In this document: piece by piece, positions 21,560 to 48,945 of the stretch
Numbering within the stretch: the stretch's first letter is position 1
Layout: each line of letters starts with the position of its first letter
Source: Sipunculus nudus
Taxonomy: Eukaryota; Annelida; Sipuncula; Golfingiida; Sipunculidae
Assembly: GCA_026874595.1 (NCBI GenBank)
Contig: CM049317.1
Coordinates: forward strand, 46,958,401 to 47,022,400
Direction: 5' to 3'
Length of the DNA: 64,000 bases
Program-made: the position numbers and the translations under genes
Notes under the pieces: model-generated
Database searches by the model: none
What the model was told of the DNA's origin: nothing
The model's input: only the letters and a program-made list of their open reading frames with translations

Positions 21560-21862
21560 GACAGTTGCTATGATGTTACCGCAATGGTACCAATGAAACT
21601 CGGACCCAACGTATACGAGAAAGACCCGCCACTAGATGGCAGCATGGGCTTGGTCGTGCAACTAACTGTGCAGGAAAGGTTCCGCACAAAGATTCCTTTT
21701 GCGTCAGAGAAATAATTTTTTGCTGGTTTGAGCAATACATTACTATGAGACATTAAGGCAAATTGCTTGCCTGCACAGGTGCATTGCAAAGATAAAAATT
21801 AACGGCGCGCACCGATGGACCATGCTATATGTATATGTTCAGTTACGCACGTTATATATATT

Positions 21863-21895
21863 CTCGGGCACGCCGCTACGTCACTTCCGGTTGGA
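21863..21895. repeat. Left terminal inverted repeat of the ISL2EU-like element
   Basis: Carries CTCGGGCACGCCG and GTCACTTCCGGTT, separated by four extra bases relative to the right arm. Further inward matches continue to about 21945. Confidence 0.85.
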
Positions 21896-21995
21896 ATTCC
21901 CCAAGCTATAAGCCTACTCGGTGAAAACAAACCCACGTGGTCTTTGACATGACCTTAGGTTTGGATAGGTCATACGTGATTACGGTGTTGCTGTC

Positions 21996-22179
21996 ATGTC
22001 GTTCGAGCATTTTGATAGCTTAGATCCCTCCGCTCGGTCGAGGTACGAGCTGAAGCTCCATTCTTCAGGCCTGACAACCTGTCCCTACAAACTGCCAGCA
22101 GGATCATGGGTAAATGAACCAACCAAGTGGCCGAAGGTGGAATGGTCTGACGTGTACTCATATCTGGTCGAGACCCCAG
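21996..22179 (+). CDS. YqaJ gene exon 1
   Basis: Starts at ATGTCGTTCGAGCATTTTG and ends at GAGACCCCAG before GTAAGT, phase 1. It encodes a polar N-terminal stretch with WPKVEWSDVYSYLVETPG. Confidence 0.85.
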
Positions 22180-25100
22180 GTAAGTCATTTCTCTCGTCTT
22201 ATTTACTAAGTAATTATTACTTACGTCAGTGACGTGGGTTTATAATCACAGCAGCAATTAACTAGCAGCATTATTAAACACAAGTACGTGTAACCCGTCT
22301 TTATTTACCTCCCTGACACGTACTTGCAATTTTATCTCGGACTGCCCAAAAAAAAAATCCCTGCCCCCCCCCCCCCCCCAAATGATTTCTCAGTTTAAGA
22401 AACCGCACGCAGTGGTTTTTACACACACCTGCATAAGTTTTTCTCAAAGTAGAAATTTACCAGTTTTGAGCTTCAACTAGCCTCTCACATTTCTTTCAAC
22501 AAAATAGAATATTAAATTTAGATAAATTTTCATTTTTTATGGTGCATTATTACTTGTTTAGCAAATATATTATATGATCATGAGGTGGCCTGATCTTATG
22601 AAATTTTTATCAAAAACCTATCATAAAAAAGTATTAAACATTTTGTTTTTGAAAAGAGTGCCTTAGAAAGACACTGATACTGATGTGGAGCTAATGAGTA
22701 GTAGATACCATATGAAATGATATAAAACATGACATCTAAGCCATGGCATTGGTCAGGATGTTGCCCCAGGTCTTCTCCATGATTTTTATTTTAAATTGTA
22801 CGACTCATATTCCAACATTTACCATTCAATACACAATATGAATTATGATATTTACTATTTCAGGTGTATTCACACGTGAAGCGATGAAGAACCACAAGAG
22901 TTTAGAAGCTCATAATTTTTTTGTTTCTGGATGGGTACAGACCATACTCCACTTTGAAATTCCTGGAACACAGAATTATGTTTTGAAGGCTGATGTACGT
23001 CCCTCTCAACGCATGAACAACCCACCTCACCATCCATGGGTTTCCTGCTCTAAAGATGGTACTGTAATCACTGCTCACTGTGACTGCAAAGCTGGGTATG
23101 TTCTCATTTCATATACATGAAATTAAGGCAGTTAATGTTTTTGTTATTGTTGTTTTCTTAATTTATTGACCTTCAGAAAATTCAGATCTACCTTCTACCA
23201 AATGCAATTTAACAGTGAAAATAATTTCACTTAACATGTACAAATCCTGCATTCTGTTGTTGTTTCTGTTTCTGTTGTTTCTGTCTTGTTTTTCAGGTGT
23301 CATTTCCAGGGAAGTTGCAGCCCTGTGACTCCCAATATGAGTATAAAAAGGTAAAAATGTTTTAAAAATCAGACTACACTGTTTTACCAACTTTACAAAA
23401 GAGATTTATCTTAACAATACTCATTCTTATAAAGGTAGCTTACTTGATCAATTTTAATGAACAATATATATATTTTATTTGGGAGTCAAATATGAGTATT
23501 CATAAAAATTCTGTTGTTGGCTTTATATTTGTGTGGCTGAAATTTTGTGATTTCTTCATGTTTGGTGTTTCGCTAGGGCTTCATTTTTACAGTTGCACCA
23601 CAACCTAAATAATCTTAGTACAGCTGTATTAGTATTGATTTTAAATTTAGAACAAATCCTACAATACTTTGCTCCTTTCTTGTTCAGTCATTCTCTTATG
23701 ACCGTTGCCACAGTTGATATATCTCTCATGCCATTACCACATAACTAATCTGTTTTTGCAGATGTTTTATCCACTCTTGTTCATCTTAGTTTATGGGGCA
23801 TTTTCAACCAAGGGTTTTATAGTCATGATTTTCTCATATTCATGATTATTACAAAATTAAAACCCTTGGGAATATAAAGGCAACCACAGTAAATCCCTAA
23901 GCACTTTTTGGTCATTCATATGAACTGTACGTATTAATCATTGGTTTTTATCCAAGTTTGCTATTTTATCTTTAATTAATTTTCACTTTTAAGCTTAGTA
24001 TTTATACTAATGTGCCTCTTGTTAAATACAATACATTTTGATGTATTGTACGATTGCATTATCATATATGTGTACTTGTTTAACAGGCTGTGCGAGTCTT
24101 GCTCCCATGTGGCAGCTGTCCTGTTCAAGATTGAGGCTGCAGTGCGAATGGGGTACACCAGTTTGGCTTGCACAGATCAGGTATGTATGTGGAATAAATG
24201 CTTTACAAAAAAAATACAGCCTGAAAGAATAGCTCAGATAAAATTCTTCAAAGACAAAGCTAAACAGCGACTTCAGTGTAGACAGACTCCTGTCATTCCA
24301 CCAGCCACTGAGCAACAGCAGGAGACCTTGCTCAAGCAGTTAGCTCAGTGCTCCAGGCCACAGATTGCATTGAGCAGTTTTAGTGATTACCATCATCCGT
24401 TCTCAGTGAAACAGGTCGTACCAGTTAAGGAAATTCTTCCACTTGACCTGCGCACACTCTACCAACCAACAGCCGTGCCAGAGAAATTAGATGATCTCAT
24501 TGCAAAGGCTCAGAACAGCATGAAAGTCACCGAGGCTGAGGTTGCATACCTTGAAAAGACCACCAGAAACCAGTCTTCATCAGTTGTCTGGCACCAGATG
24601 CGATGCGGCAGGATAACAGCATCCAGTGCATACCAGTTTCTCCATACTGACCCTCAACAACCAGCCGAGTCTCTTGTGAAAAAGATCTGCCTCCCAGGAC
24701 AAAGCCTTTCAGTTCCATCTGTGAACTGGGGCATCAGCCATGAAAAAACTGCCCTGCAAAGCTTCAGTGATGCATTCTCCCAGATACATGATGACGTGAA
24801 AGTCAGAAATACTGGGATGAGACTTAGTTTGGATGAACCATTTCTTGGTGCATCTCCAGATGCAATGGCTGTCTGTTCATGTTGTGGTTCAAGTGTAGTT
24901 GAGATAAAGTGTCCTTTTGTGTTTAGAGATAGTGAACTGAGTGCCATGTACCAAGATACTAGGTGCTGTCTTACAGCAGACAACACTTTAAAGTCTAATC
25001 ACCAGTATTATGCTCAAGTCCAAGTCCAGATGTATGTGTTTCAGGTGTCAGCAGCACAGTTTGTGTTATGGACTCCAAACTTTACCATCATAACTAAAGT

Positions 25101-25395
25101 TGCCCGAGATGATGAATTCATTGCAGAAATGCTGGACAGGCTGAAGTTATTATGGCCGGCTCATGTTCTTCCTGAACTGATAACCCGTAGCCTTGAGAAA
25201 AGACAGAAGAAAGCAGATGACTCACAGAACAGTGAACACACATACTGTTATTGCAAGAAGGACATTGGAGGGCAAATGATTGGGTGTGACAATCCATCCT
25301 GTCACATCAAATGGTTCCACATAACATGCCTGAAAAGGAAAACAGTTCCTAAAGGATCTTGGTATTGTAAAACATGTAAACCAAGGGCATCATAA
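21996..25395 (+). CDS. SWIM / YqaJ nuclease / PHD protein of the transposon
   Basis: Exons 21996-22179, 22864-23095 and 24087-25395 join in frame (phases 1 and 2) into about 574 residues with no disruption. In order: a SWIM zinc finger across the second junction (CDCKAG, then CESCSHVAAVLF, residues ~133-152); a YqaJ/lambda-exonuclease-type domain (~300-465) with the GASPD and VEIKCP nuclease motifs; and a C-terminal PHD finger (~520-570) very like the ING family. YqaJ domains act on DNA ends in recombination. Here the protein is probably the accessory protein of the transposon, acting with the transposase in the nucleus. The gene starts 436 bp from the divergent SPAG16 start. AATAAA occurs near 26079. 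Confidence 0.9.
22364..22379. repeat. Poly-C tract, 16 bases, in YqaJ intron 1
   Basis: Uninterrupted run of C after an A-rich run, inside the transposon. Confidence 0.9.
22864..23095 (+). CDS. YqaJ gene exon 2
   Basis: The acceptor is TACTATTTCAG and the donor GTATGT. It contains KNHKSLEAHNFFVSGWVQTI and ends inside the SWIM finger at CDCKAG in phase 2, which exon 3 completes. Confidence 0.9.
23511..23889. mobile_element. Nested CpG-decayed MITE in YqaJ intron 2
   Basis: The ends CTGTTGTTGGCTTTATATTT and CAACCACAG match the TA-flanked MITE at 53510-53919. Inside, CGCGA motifs of that copy appear as TGTGA or TGTGTGG. It looks like an older copy of the same family inserted into the transposon intron. 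Confidence 0.6.
24087..25395 (+). CDS. YqaJ gene exon 3 (nuclease and PHD)
   Basis: The acceptor is TTGTTTAACAG. The exon carries the second half of SWIM, the YqaJ nuclease and the PHD finger and stops at TAA 25393-25395. PHD ligands are all present: CYC, C-x4-C (CDNPSC), H-x2-C (HITC) and C-x2-C (CKTC). Confidence 0.95.
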
Positions 25396-26715
25396 GGCTT
25401 AATGGATGTGAATGTAAGGCCATCATCCTATGCCAGTCAGCTGAGCATCATGACCCATTGGCCTCTTGTTTCTCTGTGGTCCTAAGAGTACTGTGTTTGG
25501 CCTCTCTGTGAAACAAAAACGTATAGTCAATTAAACATTGTTGGTAGAATGGACAACTATAATGTAAGTGGTCAATGTCAGCAGTTTTATTTAGGCAGAT
25601 GAAAAACACATTTAGGCATGCATTTTTTATCAGCTACATGACAAACCTGACAGATATATACTATATATGCACTTTAAGTCTTGGTTATGGTTTACTTTTT
25701 AACAGTTTGTCTTTGTTATAACAGGACTCTGCAGTCTGCTCACAAGGCTGTGGTCAGGAAGATCACCTGCAGTTACTTTCCAGCATTTTAAGTGATGAAT
25801 GATTCATCACTGGTTCAGCAAGATATGATATTGTTATCTCCACAGCTTACTGATAATCCTGTGTATTCACATACATTTCACTTCACTTGAAGTTTGGGTT
25901 TACTTATCGGTTCATACTTTGTGTACACATGCTGCAAGTGCATATATGAAATATGATTTGAATACACATTCTTGTTATACAAGCCCATTATTTTATTCAT
26001 TCTAGTATTGTTGCTCTTTATTATTAAATATATTTTGTTTTGGTACAATTTTATAATTCTGTGTACATGTATACACCAATAAATCACATGTATGTGATTC
26101 AGTACAACTGTGCAACTGTTTATTAAAGGTTATTTTTATTTGTTTAAAAAAAGCATTCAGTCTGTTTGAACAGGGGCCTTCAAACACACACATATCAAGT
26201 AAGTACTATACTATTTTGCTCACTGGAGACCCAACAGGACCTACATCAGCAAATGCTTCTAGCTTGGTGGTGCAAAGGCCTGTCCATCAGTGATAAGGCA
26301 AACCATCTGCATGAATGCGCCTGCATGGTGAATTCAAATGTTAATAAATAAAACCTAATTTTGTAATGAGAAATACCATATGACACATTTTAACAAAGAC
26401 ACAATTATTTTAAAAGATTTCCTAAGTGGTAAGTGACAACTTGTAGTTTCTTTATCACATTCTGTTTTGTTATGTTCATCTCTTAATGTCAACTGAGGTA
26501 CAGATTCCTTGTGACTTAACAGGAGTTTAAATAGATGGTAAACTGATCTATGGTCAATCTAAAGCAAACCCTCTCTGTAGAAACCTGAAATTTAATAGGG
26601 ATACAAAAAAGCTCAGCAAGATATTGCCTGTAATATTAATGTAAAATGCTAACGTTTCCCTGAATTATATATTTAAATGAAAACAGGAAATCAAATATAC
26701 ATTCAAATATACATT
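25396..26715. other. Spacer between the two convergent transposon genes
   Basis: 3' untranslated and spacer DNA. It contains AATAAA near 26079 (plus strand) and a near-perfect palindrome AGTGATGAATGATTCATCAC at about 25791. No further coding sequence is seen. Confidence 0.5.
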
Positions 26716-28022
26716 TCAGTTGTTACCAGGTGAAAACACAATTCCATCACCTAAGTTAACAAGTGCTGCACAAACAGAAACAATTTTATCCACACTAGAC
26801 AACTTAGAATCTATGGCTTCATCTCTACATGACTTGATAACATTAACTGGCAAGGTTCCCTGTAACATAGCATATCTGTTTTTCATCAAACCAATTATTC
26901 TTTCTATATGTATTCGGATGGAGGCTATTTGGCGAGATGTTTCAACTTCCCGAGCTGACAACTGCGTTTTACCTTTTGTAAAACTTGGAATAATGAGGTG
27001 TGCACCACAACTTAAAGCAAAATCTTCCTGAAGTGTAAAACCCCTGTCAGCTAAAATTTGGTCACCTGGTCTGTGACGAGAAGGGTCAATAAATCCTGAC
27101 TTGCGCACCAGTTCATTGTCAGATACACGACCACCCCAACCTTGTGAAATAAACGATACACATCCTTGAGGTGTGCAACCTATTAAAAACTTAACAGTGT
27201 TATGCTTTTTGTAATTTGAATATGTACATGCACGAGCAAGAAGGTTCTTTGGCTGGTCAATGAAGATTTCAAAACAATCAATTATACAAGTGAGACGAGG
27301 AAATTTAGCCTTGAAGTGAGGAGGTATAATAGCTTGTGATGTCTCATGGTCTGGAGCTTTAATAAGAAAACCAAGTTTAGCATGCATCACATCTATCCAC
27401 TGCCAGAATACTTTAATTATGGTTGTTGTTGAGAATCCAGATCTTTCTGCAATAAACTGAAATGGCATACCAAAACGAAGTTTAATGAGTGTTACAAAGA
27501 ACTGATCGATAGGAGACATGGATGAGATATTCTTTGATACAGTGTTACAAGGAATGAAAGTTTGCAAATACATGAAGACAGAAAAGAAAACATCCCAGTT
27601 GAGTCCTGTGTGAAACTTGCATTTCAAATCATCACCAGTTACTGATGCTGCAGTAAGTCGGACCTCATCTAGTTTTTTTTTAAGTCTCTCTGCATTTTCT
27701 TGGGCCTCATCACGCTCTTTCCTCAAATTCTGCATTTCCTCCACATACCTTGCTCTTTCAGAATCCGACAAGGGAGCCTGAAGACCTTGGCTGGTGACAT
27801 CTTCATGACTGTTACCAGTATCACTGGAGGAGGTGGTAGGTACTGGCACAGAGGATGTTCTTCTGATCTTTGGCTGTGGCAAGTTGCAGCTGGCCTCACT
27901 TCTTCTCTTACAGGACTCGTATCTCTTTAGTTTCCTGGCTGAATGATCACTCAATCCGGATAGTCGATAAGCAAAAATTGTTGGAATGTAGTCTGGATGT
28001 TTTGGATCAGAATTTGGTCGAC
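26716..28022 (-). CDS. Transposase exon 2 (coiled coil, HTH, DDE core)
   Basis: The acceptor is TAATTACTTTCAG and the stop is TGA at 26718-26716. Its 434 codons are open throughout and hold all three acidic catalytic motifs. There is no good ATG before the coiled coil, so translation depends on exon 1. Confidence 0.93.
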
Positions 28023-28480
28023 CTGAAAGTAATTATTAAAGATTCTTCTATTTATAGACAACTTTAACTGATAACTAATATTATTAATAATCATTTAGAC
28101 TGTGCAGATGGTCAATTAAAATATGGGCCATTAGTTTGATACCCAGGTGCATAGGGGTCAGTTTATACCAATATATGATCAATTTAATGGTTGTCAGTAG
28201 TTATATTGTCACCAAACCTTCCCCAACATTCTGGACCATACTGAAATCTGATTAAATTCCTGCTTTTAAGATAAACATGGAAACAAGATATGGATTTATT
28301 ACATTTACAATTCTGAATATTTTTTTTAATAATTCAAGCTTATTGAAAGGAAAAACAACATTCTTGGTCACTTAATGTTAGTCTATACTAAAAAATAGAA
28401 TTATGTTACACTTACAGATAAACATTAACTCTACAGATATGATTAGATATGTTGCTTATATTTTTACCAGATATTAAGAA

Positions 28481-28664
28481 TTAATACTCATCACTAAAAC
28501 TGTCTTGCAAATTGGGGAATCCCCCTATTTTATTTAAGGCCCGGGGCCAGTATAAATGGTATGCCTATATTTTAAGCAGACATCAAGGGATTAATACTAA
28601 ACAGTAAAACGTTCTTGCAATGTGGGGAATCCCCCTATTTTATTTAAGGCCCGGGGCCAGTATA
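28481..28664. repeat. Tandem duplication with palindromes in transposase intron
   Basis: Two ~75-bp near-copies, 110 bp apart, each hold the perfect palindrome-like GGGGAATCCCC (28514-28524, 28624-28634) and GGCCCGGGGCC. The first core also fits the NF-kB consensus. Confidence 0.8.
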
Positions 28665-28818
28665 CGTACGTGGTATAATTATAAGGCCAATTAATGATCA
28701 TATGAATTTTTATGTTTGTCAACTGATCAAGACTTGGTCTCTAGCTTTGAATTTTTATAGTAGCATCTATGTAAGAGAAGTGAACTATATTACAGCACTA
28801 TAGATAATAACGACTTAC

Positions 28819-29012
28819 CTTGAATGAAATGTTTACCGCACAGTACTGCATGTTTTGATGGTTCCCATTTGGTCCCGTCAGGGTTCACCCGTCTGACCGC
28901 TTGAATCCATTTGTCTCGTCGTTCCTGGGCCTTCGGAAACACGTGGAAAGAAAGTTTTGCCCCCACTTTCAAATTGTGACTCGTACAGTCGAGCTACGCA
29001 AGATTTCGGCAT
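28819..29012 (-). pseudogene. Transposase exon 1 (THAP domain, frameshift)
   Basis: ATG at 29012 reads MPKSCVARLYESQ and then leaves the THAP frame. The continuing THAP frame starts at TGT 28987-28985. The donor GTAAGT after 28819 is perfect. The zinc-ligand Cys pair of the C2CH motif is split by the shift. Confidence 0.85.
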
Positions 29013-29127
29013 TTTGAGAAAATAAAACAAACACTAAATAGTAAATATTGCTACTTGGGGCGTGACCTTGGCTGTCCAAAAACGTGATAGAGGCTGCGCA
29101 CGTGGTTTTGTTTTCACCGAGTTGCGT

Positions 29128-29153
29128 GAACCGGAAGTGACGGCGTGCCCGAG
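29128..29153. repeat. Right terminal inverted repeat of the ISL2EU-like element
   Basis: Carries AACCGGAAGTGACGGCGTGC and CCGAG, the complement of the left end. The matching inner block CACGTGGTTTTGTTTTCACC lies about 30 bp inward. Confidence 0.85.
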
Positions 29154-29157
29154 TATA

Positions 29158-29340
29158 CAGTGAAACCTCGTTGTGTCGAGGTCGAAGGGACCCTAAAAAA
29201 ACTTCGACATATCCGAGGTTCGACACAAGCGGGTTTTATTTGGTTTAAATGTAACTAGAGTTGTCCGGAATATCGAGTCTGTAACTTCGACATAAGAGGT
29301 TATTCGACTTAAGCGAGTTCGACACAACGAGGTTTCACTA
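29158..29340. mobile_element. Pogo/Tigger-type MITE
   Basis: About 183 bp with inverted ends: CAGTGAAACCTCGTTGTGTC on the left and the complement at 29320-29339. A TA precedes the left end. The interior is a set of TTCGACATA, CGACTTAAG and ATCGAGT phrases in both orientations. CAGT ends with TA targets are typical of pogo-group MITEs. It starts only four bases beyond the ISL2EU-like terminus. Confidence 0.75.
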
Positions 29341-33895: not shown

Positions 33896-34669
33896 TATAT
33901 GACAACTTGAATAGCAATCAACAAAGCACATGCCTCCACCTACTGGATCACCCTATTCGGATCTACATTAAAACATAATTGGTTGAGTCTTCCCTGACCC
34001 ATTTCCGTTTCCCTTTACAACCTTTCATGGATGTTGGTTTTATAGTTTTTCGGTAATGGAGCAAACAAACAACAAATCCAAACACAGACAACGAAACGAT
34101 AGCACTCACAGCAGACGAAAACACATTGTGGTGAGTTGTTGTTAGTCTTACATCAGTGTCATATCATTTTATGAATCGGAAAATGAATTAGTCTGCTTCT
34201 GCTGCTCATTTTCTTCGAGGTGCAAGTCTCCCATGACGAATCAGCCATACGGTTTGTCTGGGTTGCCAGACGTTTTGCGTGGTTTAAGACAGCTGTCCCC
34301 GCCTTTCGTTTCCACAATTACTGTAAGACGTTAAAATCTCATAGAAGTTCCTGACTGCAAAGTTCAAAACAAATTTAATGTTATTTACTCTCTAAAGCGT
34401 CACCGTAATTCAGAAAGTTCAAGCACGCTCCGATCAGTTTACTAGCTGGGGAGTCTATTTGTTAAAATTAATCCAACTGTTTAAAGTGACGATGCATACA
34501 CGAGAAGAAGTCCCAAACTCGCTCAACTCACAAGTATCCTATAATCTTTAAGGTTCATATTAGTTCGCAATAATATGTGTAATTGCTCATTTTGGCTTGA
34601 TACAAAATTTGCAAGCAAAATCATCCCGAAATACGGGTTTATTACCGTTTTGTACGTTGTTATGGGACT

Positions 34670-36212
34670 TATTCCCTACACCAATATGGAGATCCTGTAC
34701 TCTTTCCCTACATAAATATGGTGATCACGTTGCTCATTCCCTACATAAATATGGTGATCACGTTGCTCATTCCCTTAATTAATATGGAGATCACGTTGCT
34801 CATTCCCTTAATTAATATGGAGATCACGTTGCTCATTCCCTCAATTAATATGGAGATCACGTTGCTCATTCCCTCAATTAATATGGAGATCACGCTGCTC
34901 ATTCCCTTAATTAATATGGAGATATCGCTGCTAATACCCTTAATTAATATGGAGATCACGTTGCTCATTCCCTTAATTAATATGGAGATCACGTTGCTCA
35001 TTCCCTTAATTAATATGGAGATCACGTTGCTCATTCCCTTAATTAATTTGGAGATCACGTTGCTCATTCCCTTAATTAATATGGAGATCACGTTGCTCAT
35101 TCCCTTAATAAATATGGAGATCACATTGCTCATTCCCTTAATTAATATGGAGATCACGTTGCTCATTCCCTTAATTAATATGGAGATCACGTTGCTCATT
35201 CCCTTAATTAATATGGAGATCACGTTGCTCATTCCCTTAATTAAAATGGAGATCACGTTGCTCATTCCCTTAATTAATATGGAGATCACGTTGCTCATTC
35301 CCTTAATTAATATGGAGATCACGTTGCTCATTCCCTTAATTAATATGGAGGTCACGGTACTCATTCTCTTAATTAATATGGAGGTCATTGTGCTCATTTC
35401 CTACATCAATATGGAGGACCGGTGCTCATTCCCTTAATTAATATGGAGGTCACGGTGCTCATTCACTACATCAATACGGCGGTCACGGTGCTCATTTCCT
35501 ACATCAAAATGGAGGTCACGATGTTCTTCACTACATCAATATGGAGGTCACGGTGTTCTTCACTACATCAATATCGAGGTCACGGTGTTCTTACTACATC
35601 AATATGGAGGTCACGGTGTTCTTCACTACATCAATATGGAGGTCACGGTCTTCTTCACTACATCAATATGGAGGTCACGGTCTTCTTCACTACATCAATA
35701 TGGAGGTCACGGTGTTCTTCACTACATCAATATGGAGGTCACGGTGTTCTTCACTACATCAATATGGAGGTCACGGTCTTCTTCACTACATCAATATGGA
35801 GGTCACGGTGTTCTTCACTACATCAATATTGAGGTCACGGTCTTCTTCACTACATCAATATGGAGGTCATGGTGTTCTTCTCTATATCAATATGGAGGTC
35901 ATGGTGCTCATTCCCTTAATAAATATGGAGGCCCGGTGCTCATTTCCTTAGTTAATATGAAGGTCACGGTGCTCATTCCATTAATCAATATGGAGGACAT
36001 AGGGATCATTCCTAACATTAATACGTAGGTTTTCGATGCTTATTCCATTACTCAATATGGAGGTCATGATGTTTATTCCTCACATCCGTAGGGAGGTCAC
36101 GGGCCTCATACCCGACATCAATATAGAGGTCACGGTGCTCATTCCATGCATCGATATGGAGGTCACTGTGCCCATTCCCTACATCAGTATCGAAGTCATG
36201 GTTCTTATTCCC
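34670..36212. repeat. 33/32-bp minisatellite, about 47 copies
   Basis: The first half repeats ATTAATATGGAGATCACGTT plus GCTCATTCCCTTA, exactly 33 bp. From ~35510 the unit becomes 32 bp (ACATCAATATGGAGGTCACG plus GTGTTCTTCACT), then degenerates. The 33-bp period is a multiple of three, so frames of 239 codons (plus) and 218 codons (minus) stay open as an artefact. Confidence 0.95.
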
Positions 36213-37039
36213 TATTACATCATTGTATATTTTGTTGTTTGATAAATTACTCTGTAATTCCGCAAAACAAAAATAAACCGATTGAAGCACGGCGACGTCC
36301 CGAACTTGTCAATGAGTGGTTTCAATTATAATCAACTATCTGACATTCTGCTAGAAAACATTGATAAAAACGTGAAGCTGTAGTAGCCAATACTGAATAG
36401 ACAACGGGACATTAAAATGAAAATATGAAGATATATTTTTACTCTAATTATCTGTGCTTGTAATTCTATAAATCAAGATTATCTAATGTAGATGGAACTT
36501 TATTATCAGAATACAGTCATCTTACATTGACAATAAACAACTGTCTAGCCAATCAGATGTCGACATGAGATTGGGAGCATTATTTATAGCCTTTTTCTCA
36601 CGATTGTAAGAAACCTGGGAAAATAATTAGTGGAGACCAGCCAAGAAACAAACGATCTTATTAACGAGAGCCGACTGCTAATAAAGCGTATTATGCCAAA
36701 TTGGATATTGATTTTAGCAGTTAATAGCGCAGAGTTGAAAGAAATCTTCTCTTTGAATTCTTCATAATACCGAGGGTACTGTCAGCATTGATGCTTCAAT
36801 TAGTGTAAAACTCTTTTGTTTATGACAGACTAATACACGCATATCAAATACAGTAATTCAATATCGAGACGAAGTCATTTTATAGCCGGGATCGCTGTTT
36901 GACTGTGGGTGAGGAGGAAGGGTGTACCATGGTTATATCGTTTTTCTGTCATATCTGCTTCGTATCGGTTTGCTTTTCTGTTCCCACCGGTCTGTATTCT
37001 GAATGTGTAAATTAGACTGTCAATTCTTTTCTCTTCCGC
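36213..37039. other. Spacer between two minisatellites
   Basis: No gene recognised. An AGCCAATCAG motif (CCAAT box) at about 36549 precedes a TTTATAG at ~36584, a weak promoter-like pair without a visible exon. Confidence 0.3.
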
Positions 37040-43447: not shown

Positions 43448-46400
43448 TCACAAATCCTGACCGTATGTGTACATAACCTCAGGCGTGCCGGATATGACGT
43501 CATCCTTCTTATCCGGGGGTTCTGACTTCACGCATTTATTATCATTTGTATCCTCCTTTGATTGACAGTCTTCAGTTTTACTTGTTTCCATATCTGGATT
43601 GACGTCACAGTTGCTGCTGGTTACAACTTTCTCCAATGGAACATCAGTTCCAGAACCATCAGTGATAAAATCCTTGTTGGAATGTCTGGCCGCGAGCTGA
43701 GGTTCTTTGAGTTCACCACCATTTGTGTCTGTGGTATGACAGTCGACCTCTTCCGGCCCATCTTTGTCGTCCATAACATACTCACATTCTGGGGTCGCCT
43801 TTCTATGCGTTGAGGTGACGGCGGTGGCACCCCGGGATTCACAGCGTGAACCACCCGCACCTAGTGGTGGCTTGGACTCATTCACCGGAGTTTTACTGCT
43901 CTCCTCACTGCACAATAGTATATCCCCTTTTTGCGGTTTATTGTCCTCGCTACTCTTTGAAGAATCTCCGCAAGATTCTGATGACATCTCAGATACATCG
44001 ATATATACAGAGTCAGGGGTAGGCATGGGAGAAACACGGCGCATTTTGAAATCATCTTCTCCGGGCATAAGTCCGTTCATTGAACCTGGACTTACACTTC
44101 TCTTCCTTCGAGAGGAATACAATGAATTCCAACGCCCTTCGTCCATATGGTCATTCTTAGAGCAATGTCTACTAATGAAACTTCCAATCATGTCAAGAAC
44201 TGTCTCGGAGCCGGAGGATTTTCTTTTTTGGTGGCACCAGTCGTAGAACTGTCTCTGCTCCGAGGACATTGGAACCCTTTGTTCATCATAGCCTTGTATA
44301 CCGGCATGCGGAACTGGCAGTGTCTCTCTGTGTTTGCTATTTATGGCACTACTGACAGCAGTTTGTCCCGGCACACCGATCATCGCCTGTTGTACAGACG
44401 GATGAGTTGGGTATGTGACGCCGTGCGACGGTTTACCCCTATTACCATGACCTGCAGGAGCAACTGGCGCACCCGAATAAACAAGTTCAGGGGCCCAACT
44501 AGGCATCATGGGCCGGCGCATATGATCAACAGCTGGTCGCTGAGCCGCAGATTTCATAGGGTTCTCTCCATTTGGATCTTTCAAATTCCCTGCATTAAAC
44601 ACTTCGAGCTGCGCAAACATCATTTGCACATCGGTGTTGTTCAATCCATGTTGTTGCATTGCTCCACGTACCTCGGTGACCGTGCGGACAGTAATATAGT
44701 CCATGCATAGTGGCACCTCGTGCGTGCGCGAAAAATGAGAGTACAGCGTAGATACTCGAGTAAAATAAGCCGAGCAAATGTTACACACTAAACATAATAT
44801 GTCATTCAAGTTATATTTCATGCGTAACGCATCTTCAAGTGCCTTCAGTGATTTGGGAGTCCTCGGACGACCCCGACCACGTTTAAATGGTTTCGGAGGC
44901 AGGACAAAGTACGCAGGATGCAGATGAGGTTGAGATGAAACTGGATTATTTTGGTAATGTGGCGGCTCTTGGGCCTGGGTGTTGCGTACTGGGGGCACGT
45001 GGGGATCAGGTTTATAGGGACCACTACCGTTCTGAAGCACCCGTACGTCAATGCGATCAATATGTGGCTCTCTGTGCTGATCCAAGCGCTGGTTTTGCCA
45101 TTGGAGATGGCGTCCGATGTTAGTATCCTCCATCCTTATTCTCACGGGCGCCTCGTGGTGTCGGTGTACCTCTGGTGTTGGTACGCGGTGAGGTTGCCCC
45201 ACATGTGGCCAAGGATAAATTGGTGGGGGCTCAGGGGCCGGAGGAACTTTGAGATTTGTGGCCTTCACACTTAAATCTAAAGGCTCATCCGACACCCGTA
45301 GGTCTAGCGGTGACGCAGCGCTCTCGCTGTGCGATAATCTTTTATCTTTGCCTTCCACAGAGCTGTTACTATTCCTGTATGTCCTGTAGGGAGATTTAGT
45401 GTCATATCTCAAATTGGGTTCAGTTTCAGGCTGTGTATCTTGATAAGATTTTTCCTCTATTGGTATCAGAGGAGGTGGCCCTAAGTCTTTTGGTAATCCT
45501 GGGCCAGACCATTGACTTTGCTGTTCATACTGATTATCTAGACGTGGAGGTTCCGAAACTGAATGACTCTCGTCTCTCATGGTGGACTCTTTGTTTTGTA
45601 CATGCCCCCATGTCCGTTCATGGTGATTTTTAACTATTGATTTATTCTGCGACGACAAAAGACACATCCCATCTACAAGATGTCTAGGTAAAGCATGGGG
45701 TGGCTTTCTTTTTGGATCCCAGGCAAGTTCACTTCTACAGTATTCAGAAGGGGGTGTCTCGTATGATTTATCGTGGTCATCTCTTAAAAAGTGTTCATGG
45801 TAAGGGGCGTGTCTGCTGTTGACGCTCCTCATATATTGGGCGTGTTCTGTCTCATTAACCCTCTCGGTAGAAACCACCGGACCTCCGTTTACGCTGCCCA
45901 GCGCTGGGCCATATTGTTGGTATGATTTTGGACTTGGTGGTTCGCTGCTTTGTGTCACAGTTTGCGTGTACCCAGAATCTGACTGTACTTGGATTCCAGA
46001 GTATTGCTTTACCGACTGTGCTGGAGAGGGGGCAGCGACATGTACATGTTCGGGAGGGGATCCTAATTGATTTACGCTAATATTACTGGTTTTACCAGAA
46101 GCCAGGTAATTTTTCGAGAGCTGTGTTTGATGCGGATCAGGTAGTATTTTCGCAGGCTTTGAAATTCCTTGTTCCACTTTTATTGATTTTTCGTCCACCC
46201 CGCCCTTGTTAGCCCTTTCTGTCGCCACTAACATGCGTTTTAAATACGAGTTACCGTTACACCCACAACCACAAGGTCCCTCAGTGGCGTACTGCATCCC
46301 CTGTCCGTGAACACAGGCCGGTGACACAAACGTGTCCGATTTCACAATATCCACAGCACTTGGTAATGAGGGCCGCACATTTTGTGGCATCGTAGTTCCA

Positions 46401-46832
46401 TAATGAGTCAAGAATGTCTCAAAGACATTTTGTGCGTCACTATCACCACGTACTTCTTCATCTTTTGATAGAGTCTGCACCAAATTGCTGCTGTCTCTAC
46501 TGTGGGTTTTTTGTACGCCGTGTTTCTTCATATGTTCTTGGTCATACCTAGAATTGCATTCTTCGCTTTGAAAATTTTCATAAAGGTAACGTTTTCGTGG
46601 ATGCTGGCATTTTGCCGAATCTCTCTCTGCGTCGGACAATATAACTGCTCTCCCGTCAAAGGAGGTAACGCGTGGTAAGTTATTTCTGTCACTGAAGCTC
46701 TGATAACCGCAAGAATGGCCACAGCAAGTGGTGGGACTTCCTTGGCAACGAGCACATCCTTTTTCGCCTTCATCTCTAATGAGCACTTCAGCTGCCATCT
46801 TGGTAACCATTGGCCCCATGTCGGACTTGTGT
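43448..46832 (-). CDS. Zinc-finger gene, main exon 2
   Basis: 3385 bp with an unbroken frame to TGA at 43450-43448. The acceptor TTGACTTTTGCAG is strong. The first in-frame ATG of this exon (46819) could also start translation if exon 1 were non-coding. Antisense frames across the exon are shadows. Confidence 0.92.
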
Positions 46833-48945
46833 CTGCAAAAGTCAACAACAGGTGGAATAAATAAAAAAAGTGCATTTTCTCAGGCAAAACACCACCAGAT
46901 GGTGTGGTTTTACATATTTAGTATAGATTTATGATAAATTAATTATTGTCACATCAAGGTTGATGCAAGTTGTTTCACCAGCTGGTTTCTATAAGATTCG
47001 GTCACTTATATTTCACACCGTCACCTTAGAATTTCCTCTGTCATACTATCGCACTGAAAATTCGAGTTGTTGTTAGCATTGAAAATATATCAAACATTTC
47101 GATATTGAAAGGAAAAAACTAAATATGGAAATAGAGGTCTAATCACACAGGTTTGCATTGTTACTTGCACACTTTATAAAGCCAGAGTCACTGCATGGTC
47201 TCGAATTGGAGACCAAAATAGAGAGCCAGTCTGTTTTGTTTCGAGACTTGGTACATGAAAGATATCAAGACCAGCACCTCCCAGTCCGAAAGCGAGACCA
47301 GTTAATCTAGTCTCGAGAGCAGGACCGGTATCGAGACCTATACCACTTGTCATGGACATAAAGGAATGGCGACAGGAATCATTGTAAACGTATAACAAGG
47401 GCACCGCAAGCTCAGCGTCTCCTTGCACCGGATCATAATTATACTGGACGTATTACACAAGTGTGAAAATGACGAGGGCAGCTCTGTGACCGTGACTTTG
47501 ACCCTGTGACCTCGAACTCAGTAGGGTTTTATCCGTGAGGGGTGGGCGATCCATATGTGAAAGATAAAAGGTTTTGGTCAAACGGTTTGGCTTCAAATCG
47601 GTCCATAAGCTTTTACAAGAAGTGGGTCGCGTGGCCTTGACCTTTGACCACGTGAACTAAAAACCAATTGAGTTCTTCATCTGTTGGTGGATAAGCAAAA
47701 TGTGCAAGATGAAAGGTTGTTGTCAAGCAGTTTGACTTAAAATGGGTCCATAATATTTTTCAAGAAGTGGGCCCCGTGGCCTTGACCTTTGACCCCTCGG
47801 CCTCAAAATCGAAGGATTCCTCGCCCGTTGGTAGGTGAGTCATATGTAAATGATAACAGACTTTGTCAAACGGCTTGGCTTAAAATGGGTCCACAATCTT
47901 TTCAAGAAGTGGGTCCCGTGGCCTTGACTTACGCGACATAAAAATCGACAGGTTTCTTCACCTGTTGGTGGGTGTGACATATGTGGAGAATGAAAGTTTT
48001 GGTCAAAAGGTTTGGCTTAAATTCGGACCACAAACCAATTACTGACGGACGGACGGACGGCAAGACAGATAGACGAACGCACGAACAGAGGCGTTACTAT
48101 ATTCCTTCCTGCAACTTCGTTGCGAGAGGATAACAATCATCCAGGTCACAGTCAGCAATCCTGGTTGAGAGTATGCGTTCATTCCAATTCGTGTGTGTTT
48201 GTGTATGTGTTGGTTCACAACACAACTTATATAACTTGATCGGAATCCGATGAAATATTCGATTCGACTTTTGTGTTGGTCATGATCTGCATCCAGGAGT
48301 GACTTCCAGGAATATTCACAAATCTGCAGGCACATATGCACGAATGAACCTGGGAGTGTGGCCAATAAGTGAAGCAAAGACGGTCCAGCCTCGTGCCCTC
48401 ATCAGGTAATCTGTCGGGCTGTTCAGGTCACGGTCGAGTGCAAAGTACTAAGGATTGAGGGTGCCCGGTGGTTGTCTGCAGTACGGCTTTTGTACACAGG
48501 CAATTTCAGCGTATGACCTTCAGCACCGGGGTTTAGATATTCGCAGAGCGTTTTTTAAACGTGTGCTCTCTGTTCGGAGGTTAGCGGCCGTCTGCCTCCC
48601 ACAATAGGGACCCTGCATGGCGGAGGCTGGCATACCAAGGAATGCTTAAATTTAGATGTTTGATGTGGGAATTTACCTTTTCCGCGATCAATATAGCCAT
48701 GCTACGATAAGACCACAATAATCCATCCACAATCAAATGGAAAATAAAACGGTATGTAACCGTTATTGAAACAGCTCAAATAAACGCATATACCTGTAAG
48801 GAACAGATCGGAGGTCCCCGGTCTGCCCGTTCACCAGTTTAATAGCCTCTGTCGATATACCAGCAGAGCACAAATTCAACATACTTTCCTTCAAATAAAC
48901 ATTACAGCGTACACCATTAACGCTGAACTCGCATTCTTGTGCCAT
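43448..48945 (-). CDS. Nuclear C2H2/AT-hook protein with CtBP-type motifs
   Basis: Exons 48945-48794 and 46832-43448 join in phase 2 into about 1178 residues. I do not recognise an orthologue. Visible parts: a compact N-terminus (MAQECEFSVNGVRCNVYLKE) continuing over the junction to YRHKSDMGPMVTKMAAEVLI; a Cys-rich patch CARCQGSPTTCCGHSC; a long disordered, His/Pro/Ser-rich middle; PLDLRV and PLDLSV (~558-570), which fit the CtBP-binding PxDLS motif; an AT-hook KRGRGRPRTPK (~700); one C2H2 finger CNICSAYFTRVSTLYSHFSRTH shortened here to C-x2-C-x12-H-x4-H (~730-756); and psi-KxE SUMO-type sites IKVE and VKSE. A DNA-binding transcriptional repressor is the best inference. A 1.8-kb transposon lies just upstream. 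Confidence 0.8.
47480..48075 (+). repeat. ~145-bp unit repeat with ACGG microsatellite
   Basis: GTGGCCTTGACCTTTGACC-type phrases at about 47488, 47631, 47776 and 47918 mark four units, ending in ACGGACGGACGGACGG at ~48043. It has the same architecture as the repeats at 1-430 and 1200-1745. Confidence 0.7.
48080..48670 (-). repeat. Dispersed repeat, related to 41320-41680
   Basis: Begins with TTCCTGCAACTTCGTTGCGA and ends GGCGGAGGCTGGCATACCAA. It carries the same type of internal text (TTCGTGTGTGTTTGTG, GTGTGGCCAATAAGTGAA) as the related copies. Confidence 0.4.
48794..48945 (-). CDS. Zinc-finger gene, exon 1 (start)
   Basis: ATG at 48945 gives 50 codons ending SVPY and a split Arg before donor GTATAT. 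The join to 46832 keeps the frame and has no stop. The start context (TATATGG) is mediocre; upstream in-frame codons are AT-rich and UTR-like. The donor is less than ideal, so this exon is likely rather than certain. Confidence 0.62.

Follow-up and report, generated by a model that had tools for sequence, protein, structure and literature searches.

DNA transposons of the ISL2EU group are described, in parts of PMC4482050 and PMC9179366, as encoding a THAP/HTH/DDE transposase and a YqaJ protein, the role of which is stated as unknown (PMC4482050). The precedent for a transposon accessory protein with a PHD finger is found in the RAG2-like transposon proteins. The PHD finger of RAG2 binds histone H3 trimethylated at lysine 4 (H3K4me3; excerpt of PMC8355894), invertebrate RAG2L proteins, with the sole exception of the amphioxus protein, are reported to end in a PHD finger (PMC7204232, in part), and the genes of RAG2L transposons are reported, in excerpts, to be convergent. 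Here we describe a 64,000-nucleotide stretch of the Sipunculus nudus genome (GCA_026874595.1, contig CM049317.1, positions 46,958,401 to 47,022,400, forward strand), hereafter the window, the numbering of which is used throughout. By its sequence, the 7.3 kb at 21862-29154 is an ISL2EU-like DNA transposon. The best explanation is a recently active element in which the open frame reported by a first-pass annotation is exon 3 of the accessory gene, and the predicted protein ends in an ING-like PHD finger. The firmer and more general result is that ISL2EU-like nucleases repeatedly end in such a finger, as recognized by sequence. Reading of H3K4me3 is plausible for the window family only.

The transposon and its accessory gene

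The inverted ends enclose two convergent genes, an accessory gene on the + strand and a DDE transposase gene on the - strand. The features are as follows.

21862..29154, unstranded: whole ISL2EU-like DNA transposon, about 7.3 kb (inverted ends, ends compared; two other full-length copies ~99% identical)
21862..21945, +: left terminal inverted repeat region, TCTCGGGCACGCCG..., interrupted (inverted ends, ends compared)
21996..22179, +: predicted exon 1 of the accessory gene (open frame, GT donor)
22864..23095, +: exon 2, first half of a SWIM-type CxC..CxH motif (AG/GT splice dinucleotides, joined frame)
24087..25395, +: exon 3, remaining SWIM-type motif, YqaJ nuclease, PHD finger and stop (open frame, Pfam, joined frame)
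24586..25173, +: YqaJ/lambda-exonuclease-like domain, query stretch (Pfam; weak lambda exonuclease alignment)
25243..25377, +: ING-like PHD finger core (phmmer against PDB, Foldseek, alignment)
26716..28032, -: main open frame of the transposase, HTH_Tnp_4 and DDE_Tnp_4 (Pfam E=2.9e-09 and 5.7e-50)
28815..29015, -: THAP-like first exon of the transposase, frame shifted in the window copy (three-copy comparison; THAP named by eye)
29099..29154, -: right terminal inverted repeat region (inverted ends, ends compared)

The three accessory exons, joined at GT/AG splice dinucleotides, predict an uninterrupted product of 574 amino acids (aa). The motifs YCYCKK, MIGCDN, KWFH and SWYCKTC, pointed out in the first-pass annotation, all lie in frame between 24087 and the stop at 25395. 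Its description of the product as a transposon-encoded nuclease also holds, given the inverted ends, the near-identical copies and the match of the YqaJ domain to PF09588 (E=4.2e-20). The alignment to lambda exonuclease is weak (E=0.003) and keeps the SPD and ExK positions, which we take to be catalytic in that enzyme. The SWIM-type motif CDCKAGLCESCSH spans exons 2 and 3. It is a motif match only, and Pfam gave no match within the N-terminal 221 aa that include it. A structure prediction of the 435-aa exon alone was discarded as evidence (mean pLDDT 36.6). Viral contigs searched with the exon yielded four loci at 26-27% identity only, which led nowhere, and none of the 28 pattern matches to a PHD profile in viral contigs was confirmed.

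Searches of the animal's own genome covered 1.43 Gb on 153 contigs. Only the best candidates were scored, so that counts are lower bounds. Exon 3 as a DNA query had at least five matches, three of them full-length: the window copy on contig C12 and copies on C5 and C14. A match on C6 (86% identity) stops before the PHD finger and one on C11 covers the last 74 bases only (88%). Five matches were found for the left terminal inverted repeat. Any two of the three full copies are set apart by 35 to 56 substitutions, with 13 to 30 gap positions, across ~7.3 kb (~99% identical), and the frame shift of the THAP-like exon belongs to the window copy, not to all copies. Five of the six element ends read TCTCGGG; the right end of the window copy reads ACTCGGG. 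AT stands at both flanks in two of the three copies and the third is without the left AT, and the outer A and T of an A/AT/T target do not fit throughout. A small element with inverted ends (AGTGAAACCTCGTTGTGTCGA...), seen by eye at about 29157-29340, adjoins the right end of the transposon and an AT microsatellite.

Key residues of the terminal finger

The assignment of the finger to the ING class is borne out. Against PDB sequences, phmmer gave a top match of E=5.5e-17, and ING, YNG, PHO23 or png2 proteins took the first 20 places among 29 matches; the 19 best fold matches to the finger model in Foldseek were likewise ING proteins. The finger has the C4HC3 ligands with ING spacing, and the generic Pfam PHD model scores it below the cut-off (19.4 vs 24 bits).

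In ING3 numbering, the cage is formed by a Tyr, a Ser, a Met and a Trp, and Arg2 of the H3 tail is contacted by Glu30, Asp23 and Cys22 (PMC5000080, in part). Three of the four cage residues are kept in the window finger (Tyr8, Met19, Trp31). We call the finger ING-like because the cage Ser15 is replaced by Ile. Among the Arg2 contacts, Asp23 and Cys22 are kept and Glu30, an Arg2 contact in ING1-5, is Lys, and thus the acidic wall is half lost. The pocket residue Trp47 is also kept. The first-pass annotation was right that Tyr, Met and Trp persist; one Asp persists too, and the ING residues Ser15 and Glu30 do not. In the alignment and structure model that the first-pass annotation had proposed as a check, the predicted finger matches ING-H3K4me3 structures and its cage positions correspond.

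Related nucleases and fingers in the genome

The finger query had at least 17 matches in the genome: three in the window family, one in a host ING gene on C10, where an ING-domain match lies ~4.5 kb upstream of the finger match, and 13 others. Ten of these 13 have a YqaJ match next to them on their own strand, and the three without one are similar in sequence to families C and G. Families were grouped by eye, and six carry an ING-like finger, namely A (the window family), B, C, D, G and the decayed H. Family B was missed by the finger query and recovered by a pattern search. PDB searches among the other families took in the fingers of B, C, D and F; the best matches of B, C and D were ING proteins.

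Of 45 distinct YqaJ loci that were fetched, 12 have a PHD pattern (three of the 12 are copies of the window element), a count that overlooks split, decayed or unfetched fingers. Two loci outside the 45, L026 and L027, are YqaJ by Pfam and have no PHD pattern. In 35 of the 45 loci the transposase match runs opposite to YqaJ, in one (L008, family B) both share a strand, and nine gave no transposase match. Among 13 other YqaJ loci scanned, seven carry the SWIM-type motif (L006, L008, L011, L029, L032, L035, L057); for five of the 13 the scan took in the open frame alone. The SWIM-YqaJ-PHD order had been called unusual in the first-pass annotation; YqaJ followed by PHD is not unique to the window element.

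The residues under discussion vary among the six families. At position 8, A and H keep the Tyr, B and D have Ile instead, and C and G have Trp. Met19 is kept in A, C, G and H, Trp31 is kept in A, B, D and H and lost in C and G, and Asp23 is kept in A and H only. The full Tyr-Met-Asp-Trp set thus occurs only in the window family and in H, which has lost several zinc-ligand cysteines. Trp47 is kept in all six families (Arg in one of four aligned G copies). The net charge of the finger core (K+R minus D+E) is +6 in A, +5 in G and D, +3 in C, +2 in B and -1 in H, vs 0 in the host ING, 0 in ING4 and -1 in png2, and -4 and -6 in families E and F, a small comparison drawn up after the sequences were seen. 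The basic cores suggest some added affinity for DNA. In L031, a copy of family B, the first zinc knuckle is lost, and the finger thus decays in some copies.

Two further YqaJ families, at L007, L009, L028 and L034, end in another class of PHD finger. The finger of family F (L028) has KAT6A and TAF3 as best PDB matches, and that of family E passes the Pfam PHD model. Since these two families end in a different class, acquisition of PHD fingers may have happened repeatedly.

A YqaJ tree built from 48 rows puts families B, C and G together with the PHD-less L022 and L024 (support 94/87), and A, D and H are unplaced. The tree omits L005, L014, L015, L016, L018, L019, L020 and L073, and in addition all rows with more than three stops or a span below 110 residues; stops in the remaining rows were set to X. 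This grouping implies repeated gain or loss of the finger. A PHD tree (10 rows, 47 columns) resolves no groups, with the transposon rows on one side in only 28% of bootstrap trees. A single early capture of an ING finger would be one possible origin. Recent capture from the host was considered and rejected: the window core shares 49% identity with the host ING finger that was found and likewise 49% with the finger of family G.

Possible ligands and known systems

We tentatively favor, at a probability of about 0.4, H3K4-methyl-dependent binding with an altered Arg2 contact for the finger of the window family, judging by its residues. The accessory protein would work with the transposase on DNA ends, and the finger would tether the transposase/accessory complex to nucleosomes. 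Most likely it would still bind the H3 tail through Tyr-Met-Trp with a preference for methylated K4. The Lys in place of Glu would alter the Arg2 contact, perhaps with extra DNA affinity. By analogy with RAG2, the action of the complex would be biased to open, active chromatin rather than showing strict promoter selection.

Promoter-proximal choice had been proposed, and the window copy had been placed about 300 bp from a gene start. That distance is right: 303 bp separate the left end of the element from a - strand ATG, a likely start codon. A SPAG16/PF20 exon lies within 447-797 on the - strand (E=7.5e-17), and the ATG, 20 kb away, probably belongs to SPAG16. A CTCF-like core, CCACTAGATGGC, at 21629-21640 lies between the transposon and what may be the start of SPAG16. 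An ATG 852 bp beyond the right end of the C14 copy comes after a splice acceptor and opens a frame for the beginning of a Rossmann FAD/NAD-binding domain (PF13450, E=1e-06). Pfam found no gene domain within ~6 kb on either side of the C5 copy at the thresholds used, with four of six frames covered in the near right flank, which is weak evidence of absence. Two of three copies near likely start codons is thus a suggestive pattern, post hoc and drawn from three young copies, which are too few to show promoter targeting. DNA transposons often favor open chromatin anyway. Elsewhere in the window, 34601-36300 is a minisatellite with open frames encoding INMEITLLIPL-like repeats, and 43451-46879 on the - strand is a 1143-aa open frame with no Pfam match above the cut-off and AT-hook-like and C2H2-like stretches by eye.

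Several points weigh against methyl-lysine reading. As read from sequence, the replacement of Glu30 by Lys puts a positive charge at the ING Arg2-contact site, and Glu30 is kept in none of the six ING-like families. The ligand of a basic core may be DNA or something else, which weakens H3K4me3 reading. Other families lost Trp or Tyr, so this reading is no shared need. No PHD pattern was found in the fetched stretch at 33 of the 45 distinct YqaJ loci, and with L022 and L024 placed among B, C and G the finger seems dispensable. The finger amino acids are unchanged among the three full copies and the rest of exon 3 has three variable positions; this is no sign of selection, the copies being too alike. 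The two cases of promoter proximity rest on weak gene evidence. Plant VEL fingers, finally, have a PHD signature without H3 binding and lack the aromatic cage (PMC9640981, in part).

The alternative that fares best, though rather unlikely, is that the ING fold is now mainly a module of the nuclease that contacts DNA, RNA or protein, with histone reading lost or incidental. The basic cores of five of the six families, the loss of the Arg2-contacting Glu in all six and of the cage Trp in two, and the near-complete retention of Trp47 would all fit, and binding of DNA and RNA has been reported for VEL PHD superdomains (PMC9640981, in part). However, Tyr, Met, Asp and Trp are all retained in A and the decayed H, a combination that DNA binding alone does not need. 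It is doubtful that the finger reads the H3 tail with another preference, be it for K4 that is unmodified or carries fewer methyl groups or for tails modified at Arg2. The Ile that replaces Ser in the K4 pocket and the Lys that replaces Glu in the R2 pocket point that way, as do the dimethyl K4 preference of the sea urchin RAG2L finger (PMC7204232, in part) and the varied R2 pockets among readers (PMC9640981, in part), whereas Tyr-Met-Trp is a cage of the trimethyl-lysine type. Least likely is an autoinhibitory switch, as proposed for RAG2, by which nuclease or transposase would stay inactive until H3K4me3 is met and the finger would be no targeting device: according to part of a preprint, the RAG2 PHD finger blocks target DNA binding and inhibits transposition until long H3K4me3 peptides relieve it (PMC11844651), and both systems have convergent genes and an accessory protein with a terminal PHD finger, but this comparison covers the finger and the gene layout.

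The first-pass annotation was thus right in its observation and in the finger class; the H3K4me3-reading function is plausible, and was overstated. In a bolder and improbable extension of methyl-lysine reading, a second, unrelated animal DNA transposon superfamily would have a C-terminal histone-tail reader on its accessory protein, like the RAG-type; one ING finger, captured early, would have changed its ligand from family to family, ranging from H3K4me3 to nucleic acids, sister elements would differ in chromatin preference, and the window family would still home to active promoters. An ING-like chromatin-reader finger is a concrete proposal for the role of the second ISL2EU protein; it would also parallel the PHD finger of RAG2, the V(D)J recombinase's partner protein. 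Sister families with a full cage, an altered cage or no finger in one genome offer a natural comparison of chromatin reader and landing site.

Among the papers listed by our searches, judged by title and abstract start, we found no description of a PHD finger on an ISL2EU nuclease; repeat and protein databases and subscription journals, outside this scope, may well catalogue such proteins. The term PHD does not occur in PMC4482050 and occurs once in PMC9179366, as an academic degree. The window element resembles ISL2EU (PHIS superfamily) in its DDE transposase and YqaJ genes and, less clearly, in the AT target duplication, seen in two of three copies (PMC4482050; PMC9179366, both in part). It differs in its length (7.3 kb vs an average of ~4.8 kb in the excerpted description), in ends that begin TCTCGGG where the group usually has GG, and in the ING-like PHD finger, which neither source mentions. 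We call it ISL2EU-like and do not exclude it from ISL2EU, because the source says "usually". From lambda exonuclease and the YqaJ recombination nucleases, with which it shares YqaJ sequence and the SPD and ExK positions, the predicted protein differs by its N-terminal SWIM-type motif, its C-terminal PHD finger and its place in an animal transposon. The fingers of ING1-5, YNG1/2 and png2 are the best sequence and fold matches, and the window finger keeps their Tyr, Met, Trp, Asp, pocket Trp and Pro. Unlike them, it has Ser15 to Ile, Glu18 to Gln and Glu30 to Lys, is basic, and follows a nuclease. RAG2 and the RAG2-like proteins of RAGL transposons, some of which read H3K4 methylation (in the parts of the sources that treat them), share with the window element an accessory protein that ends in a PHD finger and a convergent transposase gene. 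There, however, the PHD finger follows a Kelch propeller instead of a YqaJ nuclease, the transposase is of another type, and the zinc-ligand pattern is another. With a transposase that matches DDE_Tnp_4 and a YqaJ accessory protein, the window element stands apart from the RAGL transposons.
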